A stretch of 64,000 nucleotides of DNA from Kaustia mangrovi (lineage in GTDB: Bacteria > Pseudomonadota > Alphaproteobacteria > Rhizobiales > Im1), in NCBI RefSeq assembly GCF_015482775.1, contig NZ_CP058214.1, forward strand, positions 992,001 through 1,056,000. The letters are read 5' to 3'. This document shows positions 50,506-52,331 of the stretch, one piece after another (the stretch's first letter is position 1; every line of letters begins with the position of its first letter). The translations under genes were made by a program, and so were the position numbers. A model generated the notes under the pieces. The model had not been told where the DNA came from. It saw only the letters and a program-made list of their open reading frames with translations, and ran no database searches.

Positions 50506-51153
50506 ATGCGGCAAGCCGATTCGAGAACGCCTGCGGGGCCCGACTACATGCACGAGATGCGTCTCGCGGCGGAAGGGACAGGGCCCGTGGCGGGGGTGGA
50601 CGAGGCCGGCCGCGGCCCCTGGGCCGGGCCCGTCGTCGCCGCGGCCGTCGTGCTCGATCCGCGGAACATCCCCGAGGGGCTCGACGATTCCAAGCGCCTC
50701 ACCGCGCAGCGCCGCGAGGCGCTGTTCGAGGAGATCATGGCCCGCGCCCACGCTGTCGCCGTGGAGGCGCCGGTGGAGCGGATCGACCGCGACAACATCC
50801 ATCGGGCCACATTGTGGGCCATGGCGGAGGCCTGCCGGGCCCTGCCCGTCGCCCCCGCCTCAGCGCTGATCGACGGGCGCCACTGCCCCCCGCTCGCTTG
50901 CCGGACGCACGCACTGATCGGCGGCGACGGACTGTCGCTCTCCATAGCGGCGGCCTCCATCGTCGCCAAGGTCACCCGCGACCGGCTGATGGTCGCGCTC
51001 GGCCGCGACTATCCCGAATACGGCTTCGAGCGGCACAAGGGCTATGGCACCCCGGAGCACCGCATGGTGCTCGACCTGCTCGGCCCCACCCCCCATCACA
51101 GGCGCTCCTTCGCGCCCATTCGCGCGCTCGTCGAAAGAGCGCCCGCCGATTAA
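50506..51153 (+). CDS. rnhB: Ribonuclease HII
   Basis: Cuts RNA in RNA-DNA hybrids and at single ribonucleotides in DNA. 215 aa. The first active-site Asp and Glu are in [56 protein letters not shown] and [20 protein letters not shown] follow in family order. The stop (TAA) overlaps a probable CtrA box for ccrM. The start ATG 50506 has no clear ribosome site, and a few in-frame alternatives downstream exist. Confidence 0.95.
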
Positions 51154-51180
51154 TCCAAACTTTACGCTCTCCCGCGATTC
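51150..51180 (+). promoter_or_regulatory. Candidate CtrA box and methylatable GANTC site before ccrM
   Basis: TTAA at 51150-51153, seven bases, then TTTA at 51161-51164 is one mismatch from the CtrA pattern TTAA-N7-TTAA. GATTC at 51176-51180 is a GANTC site, the target of CcrM itself. Caulobacter ccrM is CtrA-activated and has GANTC sites in its leader, so the arrangement fits. No footprint evidence exists here. Confidence 0.55.
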
Positions 51181-51224
51181 TCAGTGGCTCCTGAACGAGT
51201 TAGTGAGTTGCGTTGGGGGTTCCC

Positions 51225-52331
51225 ATGGGGATTGCGTCACGGTCGGACATCCGGCCCTTTCACGATACTGTACTGGCCGACGACTGCCTTCAGGCACTCG
51301 ACCGGCTGCCCGCCAAATCCGTCGATCTGATCTTTGCCGACCCGCCCTACAACCTTCAGCTCAAGGGCGAGCTGCTGCGCCCCGACAATTCGCGCGTCAA
51401 CGGGGTCGACGAGCAATGGGACCGGTTCACGGGCTTCGAGCACTATGACGAGTTCACCCGCGCCTGGCTGGAAGCCTGCCGCCGGGTCCTGTCGGACACC
51501 GGCACCATCTGGGTGATCGGGAGCTACCACAACATCTTCCGCATGGGCACCGTGCTGCAGGATCTGGGCTTCTGGATCCTCAACGACGTGGTCTGGCGCA
51601 AGACCAATCCGATGCCGAACTTCCGCGGCAAGCGTTTCACCAACGCCCATGAGACGCTGATCTGGGCGGCCAAGGACTCCGACCAGAAGCGTTACACCTT
51701 CAATTACGAGGCCATGAAGGCTCTGAACGACGACCTTCAGATGCGCTCCGACTGGGTGCTGCCGATCTGCACGGGCGGCGAGCGCATGAAGGACGGGGAC
51801 GGCAACAAGCTGCACCCCACCCAGAAGCCGGAATCCCTGCTCCACAGGGTGATCCTGTCCTCGTCCAATCCGGGCGACGTGGTGCTCGATCCGTTCTTCG
51901 GCACGGGCACGACCGGCGTCGTCGCCAAGCGCCTCGGCCGCCACTATATCGGCATCGAGCGCGAGCCGGCCTATATCGAGGCGGCCGAAGCGCGGCTCGC
52001 CGCGACCGAGCCGGCCGACCCCGACGCGGTCAAGGTGTCGGCAGGCAAGCGCGCGGAACCGCGCATCCCGTTCGGCTCCATCGTCGAGCGCGGGCTCATA
52101 AAGCCGGGCACCACGCTCTACGATCCGCGCAAGCGCCATGCCGCCAAGGTGCGCGCCGACGGCTCGCTCGCCTGCGAGAACGCCACCGGCTCCATCCACA
52201 AGATGGGCGCCCATGTGCAGGGCGTGGAGGCCTGCAACGGCTGGACCTTCTGGCATCTTCGCCGCGGCAAGGATTTCGTGCCCATCGACATGATCCGCCA
52301 GGAGGTGCGCGCCGAGGTCGCCACCGCCTGA
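51225..52331 (+). CDS. ccrM: CcrM-type DNA adenine methyltransferase (GANTC)
   Basis: 368 aa, beta-class N6-adenine methyltransferase. The catalytic DPPYN motif is at residues 39-43 and the SAM-binding [20 protein letters not shown] comes later, the beta order. The C-terminal 80 or so residues ([20 protein letters not shown] and after) form the extra DNA-binding domain specific to CcrM. It methylates GANTC late in the cell cycle and affects many promoters. ATG 51225 follows GGGGG; the TTG at 51213 is an alternative. Confidence 0.96.

Follow-up and report, generated by a model that had tools for sequence, protein, structure and literature searches.

Control of ccrM by CtrA is already published for Caulobacter, Brucella, Agrobacterium and Sinorhizobium. 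In Sinorhizobium meliloti, CtrA binds ccrM in ChIP-seq, depletion of CtrA lowers ccrM, and lacZ data are reported in addition (PMC4433202). CtrA of Caulobacter crescentus binds upstream of the ccrM genes of Agrobacterium tumefaciens (PMC7003649) and Brucella abortus (PMC2877005), and an A. tumefaciens ccrM fusion is reported to be little changed without PdhS2 and raised without DivK (PMC7003649). CtrA sites were also predicted before rhizobial ccrM, and the same source describes ccrM without CtrA sites in some groups (PMC2877005). According to a modelling paper, CtrA-driven transcription of C. crescentus ccrM is confined to hemimethylated DNA (PMC2217572). In A. tumefaciens, methylation by CcrM represses gcrA, and it was proposed to limit sigma recruitment (PMC11514494). 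How ccrM is held back until late, when CtrA acts on so many genes, has long been asked in work on the alphaproteobacterial cell cycle. Given the published action of CtrA on ccrM, the promoter described here is one of a known type, with a variant half-site.

The window, a stretch of 64,000 nucleotides of the Kaustia mangrovi genome, contains a ccrM gene that follows rnhB on the same strand. The two genes are separated by a gap of 71 bases, and the ATG of ccrM lies at 51225. The elements of the locus are as follows, in positions of the window.

50506-51153, plus strand: rnhB (ribonuclease HII), the upstream neighbour of ccrM; Pfam RNase_HII, 144.9 bits, and NCBIfam ribonuclease HII
51151-51153, plus strand: stop codon TAA of rnhB, inside the first TTAA of the box; read directly
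51150-51164, plus strand: CtrA-type box TTAATCCAAACTTTA, TTAA-N7-TTTA; read directly, same form in the ccrM leaders of relatives
51150-51153 and 51161-51164, plus strand: first half-site TTAA (containing the rnhB stop) and second half-site TTTA
51176-51181, plus strand: predicted -10 hexamer GATTCT, 26 bases past the box start; placed from the offsets of such hexamers
51176-51180, no strand: GANTC (GATTC), the CcrM target; methylatable adenines at 51177 (plus strand) and opposite 51179 (minus strand)
51186-51190, plus strand: predicted region of the transcription start, placed by analogy with C. crescentus ctrA P2, with the 5' end of the box at about -39
51208-51213, plus strand: TTGCGT, a second word conserved in ccrM leaders (43 of 82 genera)
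51215-51219, plus strand: Shine-Dalgarno-like GGGGG, 5 nt 5' of the ATG; assigned by eye
51225-52331, plus strand: ccrM, predicted GANTC adenine methyltransferase of 368 aa; NF050803, N6_N4_Mtase and RAMA
51232-51237, plus strand: second TTGCGT, within the first codons of ccrM; read directly

The preliminary description had placed in this gap a TTAA-N7-TTTA element with one mismatch to the CtrA consensus and a GATTC site in the ccrM leader, and had the former built partly from the stop codon of rnhB. Direct reading of the sequence confirms both elements at 51150-51164 and 51176-51180, and the TAA at 51151-51153 lies exactly inside the first TTAA.

The product of ccrM aligns with the CcrM model NF050803 over its full length (3-349 of 350) at 628.2 bits, below the cut-off of 830, and carries an N6 adenine methylase domain (PF01555) and a C-terminal RAMA domain (PF18755). 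A CcrM counterpart (E <= 1e-120) is present in 394 of the 397 genomes of the order, and the best among the 80 named loci kept for CcrM are from Hyphomicrobiales or unassigned Alphaproteobacteria, in line with which K. mangrovi is presumably a member of that order. K. mangrovi also encodes GcrA and a CtrA ortholog (NF045991, 421 bits with a cut-off of 350), the latter being 84% identical to a C. crescentus CtrA reference sequence. An Rfam search of 50900-51500 gave no match at the gathering score.

In the window, TTAA-N7-TTAA is matched with at most one mismatch at three places against 0.30 expected, a number reached in one of 100 shuffles. The exact form TTAA-N7-TTTA occurs eight times on both strands of the whole genome, a single contig of 4.63 Mb, compared with 25 occurrences of the reversed control pattern, so that chance would rarely (about 1 in 16,000) place one in a 71-base gap in the right orientation. 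The same form recurs before ccrM in the order. In a sample covering 36 families, it is found in 50 of 110 ccrM leaders and 41 of 82 genera, whereas 200 dinucleotide shuffles of the leaders gave a mean of 0.30 genera and a maximum of three. These leaders comprise 30 loci returned from 40 genomes with a match and 80 picked among the matches listed, the latter mostly one or two per genus with family f22 more heavily sampled. The spacing of N7 is conserved as well, since none of the 110 leaders has the half-sites at N6 or N8. An overlapping set of 159 leaders, left from 190 loci after 29 without a tblastn anchor and two that were too short had been set aside, contains 41 with N7 and at most five with any other spacing from 0 to 20. 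All four ccrM leaders of the family of K. mangrovi have the TTTA form; in this comparison, 80 loci were anchored by coordinates, not by tblastn.

Scored by the best match to TTAA-N7-TTAA, the 110 leaders show zero, one, two and three mismatches in 7, 64, 30 and 9 cases, respectively, and 60 of them lack exact TTAA-N7-TTTA. An enlarged set of 133 genomes contains the TTTA form in 66 (43 genera, 20 families), the TTAA form in seven (six genera, five families) and both in one. It includes 40 added regions, chosen partly for family f31 and other box-bearing families and partly for longer upstream reads, and as the set is unevenly drawn, 66 of 133 is no unbiased frequency. The count of eight in the genome and the conservation in leaders relative to shuffles rule out a chance occurrence of the box.

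Compared across relatives, as the preliminary description had proposed, the half-sites in the gap prove to be conserved. Its view of ccrM as a CtrA-type target is in line with the wide conservation of the box, with the CtrA ortholog and with the published status of the ccrM genes of relatives as CtrA targets. We infer that CtrA binds here, and the box is very probably a CtrA-driven promoter element of ccrM, as predicted from the sequence. Alternatively, ccrM could be mainly co-transcribed with rnhB, with the box minor or inactive. The short gap, the common strand and the lack of a terminator-like site between the two genes agree with such an arrangement, but the box is also conserved where rnhB was not found upstream, which is the case in 34 of the 66 boxed leaders (many of these 34 were read for about 500 bases only, and rnhB may be missed in some), and we consider co-transcription as the main mode very unlikely.

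In its second half, the K. mangrovi box has TTTA and thus departs from perfect TTAA-N7-TTAA, and at ccrM this departure is more frequent in the order than any other form. By genus, 41 of the 82 have TTTA and five have TTAA. Scanning with the perfect motif would recover only seven of the 110 sampled ccrM leaders (five genera), which calls for caution. The bias is much weaker among 79 usable named loci (TTTA in seven, TTAA in five), a set that overlaps the other genomes at three or more loci (L003/G077, L029/G061, L044/G187) and is thus not independent of them. Three genes, rpoD, ftsK and ctrA, were compared with ccrM for the half-site form in a pool of 41 genomes. There, 36 ccrM leaders have the TTTA form in 17 and the TTAA form in three cases, whereas TTAA-N7-TTAA is found in 15 of 30 rpoD and 10 of 30 ftsK leaders and the TTTA form in two and one, respectively. 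The control leaders were 30 loci returned from 38 genomes with an rpoD match and 30 from 40 with an ftsK match. Taken together, rpoD and ftsK (TTAA 25 and TTTA 3 of 60) differ from ccrM with a Fisher p of 4e-7, a value that is too small because the test takes genomes as independent, although the direction of the difference is clear. No N7 box dominates in the ctrA leaders (TTAA in one and TTTA in three of 30), which are therefore uninformative either way on the specificity for ccrM. The prevalence of TTTA at ccrM as against TTAA at rpoD and ftsK rules out decay as the origin of the mismatch. The single mismatch pointed out in the preliminary description is thus real but was undervalued, since T is the letter conserved at ccrM.

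CtrA~P is reported, by a 1999 study, to have a 10- to 20-fold lower affinity for PccrM than for PfliQ. Deviation from the consensus is described as reducing the binding of CtrA (PMC3751295). Affinity cannot fully explain the behaviour of the promoter, as lowering CtrA had little effect on a ccrM reporter and more effect on ftsZ, which has a perfect box (PMC3751295). TTTA may represent a conserved affinity setting at ccrM, a reading that we place close to even but somewhat on the doubtful side. It is also conceivable, though not what we expect, that the box is a CtrA site in which the T is kept for another factor or promoter element, such as an extended TTTACC or a repressor, with no role in affinity. 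The conserved block extends past the half-site (of 41 genera, 40 have C at +15, 32 have C at +16 and 27 have T at +18), which is more than a TTTA half-site alone requires. However, boxes with TTAA at rpoD and ftsK are followed by a -10-like hexamer at the same distance, so that TTAA is compatible with the promoter geometry, and C. crescentus ccrM has a different substitution (CTAA), which suits a weaker site over a specific T (PMC3751295). Because this deviation of one letter is conserved at ccrM over many families, and rpoD and ftsK provide internal controls, the idea that a weak site sets timing could be tested by swapping a single base in several species. A ccrM-specific TTTA half-site was not found in print in our search, which was limited to open-licence literature, and as far as that literature was searched it is new.

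Downstream of the box, ccrM leaders of 43 genera share a hexamer of the form xAxxxT, which starts at offset 26 (26 counts) or 27 (15) from the box. Over 28 rpoD and ftsK boxes, TA followed by A, G or T starts at the same offsets (12 and 10 counts; TANNNT 6 and 4). Other offsets are lower, reaching at most seven for ccrM and two for the controls. This hexamer at +26/27, common to ccrM, rpoD and ftsK, is read as the predicted -10 element. Because some families hold GTAACCAT at the -10 place, a third CtrA half-site there is another reading. The TTTACC half-site was rejected as a -35 hexamer, since a -10 element at +26/27 leaves only 9-10 bases between the two. In K. mangrovi, the hexamer at offset 26 is GATTCT, which is a poor match to TATAAT. 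GANTC thus coincides with the predicted -10 element, and transcription would start near 51186-51190. In C. crescentus ctrA P2, which served for this placement, a full CtrA motif is located at -39 (PMC4287350). Simple sigma-70 and terminator scans of 51000-51300 gave no match; for sigma-70, this is expected of an activator-dependent promoter and gives it no support either.

GANTC is avoided in the window, with 94 sites against 320 expected from shuffles. The avoidance fits GANTC methylation by the predicted CcrM, without demonstrating methylation. At the density of 94 sites, a 71-base gap would hold a GANTC by chance in about 10% of cases, so that the site is mildly unusual and not striking. 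Among 53 box-bearing ccrM leaders, GANTC is not enriched (seven in 6360 bases, or 1.10 per kb, against 1.98 further upstream), and the three other ccrM leaders of the family of K. mangrovi have no GANTC between box and start, which together exclude GANTC as a conserved companion of the box. The -10 element is touched by GANTC in four of 67 boxes (offsets 26, 27, 29 and 29) against about 1.3 expected at background density, which is borderline. Within 120 nt of the start, more than one GANTC is present in none of the 50 leaders with a TTTA box and in 21 of the 60 without it, and since 20 of these 21 belong to family f22, they represent one lineage.

Taken for what these counts say, namely no enrichment in boxed leaders, absence in the same family and a borderline number on the -10 element, the GANTC of K. 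mangrovi is somewhat probably a chance hit without a regulatory role. Against this stand the strong avoidance of GANTC in the window, which nonetheless has one on the -10 element, and the packing of GANTC into ccrM leaders of other lineages. Control of ccrM by methylation of the leader GANTC, as put forward in the preliminary description, draws on the position of the site on the predicted -10 element in K. mangrovi and on precedent, boxed leaders having no general excess; it is weakly supported, as the same-family leaders lack the site, and the preliminary description overvalued the GANTC. We regard a regulatory role of GANTC here as possible, short of probable. With a GANTC on the predicted -10 element, it would be equally simple to test whether CcrM acts back directly on its own gene. 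This placement at ccrM was not met with in print within the open-licence literature to which the search was limited, and is new as far as the literature was searched.

The first half-site is shared with the end of rnhB. In the set of 133 genomes, rnhB is found upstream in 32 of 66 boxed and 27 of 67 unboxed leaders. Among these 32 boxed leaders, 10 (eight genera, six families) have an rnhB gene that terminates in the TAA of the first half-site. A near-uniqueness to K. mangrovi, suggested by three cases at first, was overturned when 9 of 26 and then 10 of 32 were counted. The C-terminal tails of rnhB in the ten sharers differ in length or sequence, with the exception of the close relatives G295 and G229. 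In two genomes of family f31 (G245 and G319; L312 and L314), the box starts 18 bases before the rnhB stop, and the whole site lies inside the coding end of rnhB.

Selection for sharing, which would couple the end of rnhB to the control of ccrM, could account for the excess over uniform placement. When the five of 32 boxes located more than 120 bases from the rnhB stop are set aside, uniform placement predicts 0.38 sharing cases among the remaining 27 boxes against 10 observed. However, a passive trap explains a large share of them. In 3 of 15 non-sharing cases, the TAA of the box is the next in-frame stop if the present stop is lost, and of 45 frames followed from 60 bases upstream, 9 terminate at this TAA. 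Frames that drift in a short gap are thus caught by a conserved TAA, without any need for selection for sharing. On the rnhB tree, stop sharing requires nine changes, no fewer than with shuffled labels (mean 8.4; 29 rows); the tree left out three of the 32 rows, whose frames end 286-1051 bases from the box, and kept the far-off G003 and G033. Its starred branches force at least three changes, and many of its forks are weak. The frame-trap counts and the tree reject the claim that stop sharing must be selected, and we judge selected sharing to be quite improbable. The shared coding end and control site of the preliminary description is therefore real and recurrent, while a passive explanation suffices for it. 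We found no report of an rnhB stop shared with a CtrA box in the open-licence literature to which our search was limited.

Several other elements and layouts were observed in ccrM leaders. TTGCGT(A) near the ccrM start is present in 58 of 110 leaders and 27 of 36 families. In 160-base stretches including the first codons, TTGCGT is found in 43 of 82 genera, compared with a shuffle mean of 5.7 and none in control upstream stretches. It is usually located 16-17 nt before the next ATG, and is sometimes repeated or within the first codons. It is present both with and without the box (28 of 50 leaders with and 30 of 60 without the TTTA form), and it could be an mRNA leader element. The longer form GTTGCGTANNGG has no genome-wide excess over its reversed control in most of 41 genomes. 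Family f22 (23 leaders; L115-L132, L134, L135, L138, L141 and others) has no TTAA-N7-TTTA. Instead, a TTAACCA half-site followed by GANTC at 13-15 nt is found in 19 of its 23 leaders against 1 of 87 elsewhere, and a tight GANTC triplet in 17 of 23, with GANTC at 26 per kb compared with 1.3 further upstream. The Aestuariivirga locus L004 has a layout like that of L115 from this family. Moreover, in the loci L020-L078, mostly from Rhodobacterales, a TTGAC -35-like element lies among three GANTC whose spacing is fixed. The strict triple is present in 24 and TTGA..GANTC-N6-GANTCA in 29 of the 79 usable named loci, and no CtrA box was seen in the Rhodobacterales ccrM leaders among the named set. 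The Rhodobacterales triple looks like a GANTC-based core promoter, perhaps dependent on GcrA.

Elsewhere in the K. mangrovi genome, canonical TTAA-N7-TTAA occurs at 12 places, some without an evident target. Such boxes are located upstream of rpoD, ftsK and the genes of a receiver-domain protein, an LdtR-type regulator and a MepK-type endopeptidase (L203, L207, L201, L212 and L206), which form a plausible CtrA regulon. The hemE region is the usual site of the alphaproteobacterial origin. The gap between hemE and the gene of a PpsR-type regulator (L208, 1046-1297; G000, about 2,605,500) contains a perfect CtrA box, TTAACGAGAGGTTAA, and another TTAAC half-site. It also contains a sequence fitting the DnaA consensus as quoted in PMC2877005. 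The S. meliloti origin is reported to be without CtrA motifs (PMC4433202). With the origin of K. mangrovi inferred to lie at hemE, ccrM would be located at roughly two thirds of the origin-to-terminus distance and would become hemimethylated late.

The mechanism we favour combines these features. CtrA~P would occupy both half-sites, which span the -35 region at a predicted -39 to -25, and recruit RNA polymerase to the GATTCT -10 element (51176-51181), so that the leader would extend for about 35-39 nt up to the ATG. The downstream half-site would stay TTTA because a weaker site needs more CtrA~P, which would turn ccrM on late in the cycle. CcrM would then methylate the GANTC within its own -10 element and probably weaken the promoter until the next fork leaves the site hemimethylated. 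The effect of methylation could also have the opposite sign, as GcrA could activate instead. The first half-site would double as the rnhB stop as a consequence of the short gap and of the fixed TAA that the box provides in frame. As a whole, the proposal that an order-wide weak TTTA half-site makes ccrM late, and that the GANTC on the -10 element lets CcrM shut its own promoter in K. mangrovi, is rather doubtful. If it is true, ccrM would have a conserved affinity setting while other CtrA targets keep TTAA, and the GANTC on the -10 element would be a second device in K. mangrovi.

In C. crescentus, the GANTC of ccrM is located within the transcribed leader and is not known to overlap the -10 element. 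The ccrM gene of C. crescentus, like that of K. mangrovi, has an upstream CtrA box with a single substitution in the downstream half and a GANTC in the promoter (PMC3751295, PMC2217572), whereas the substitution itself differs, with TTAA-N7-CTAA in C. crescentus and TTAA-N7-TTTA in K. mangrovi (PMC3751295). For the ccrM genes of S. meliloti, A. tumefaciens and B. abortus, CtrA binding has been reported (PMC4433202, PMC7003649, PMC2877005); for K. mangrovi ccrM, the present analysis gives the TTTA sequence of the box, the position of the -10-like hexamer and the stop codon shared with rnhB. The gcrA promoter of A. tumefaciens resembles that of K. mangrovi ccrM as an alphaproteobacterial cell-cycle promoter containing GANTC (PMC11514494). 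It belongs to a different gene and has six GANTC upstream (PMC11514494); K. mangrovi ccrM combines one GANTC with a CtrA box.
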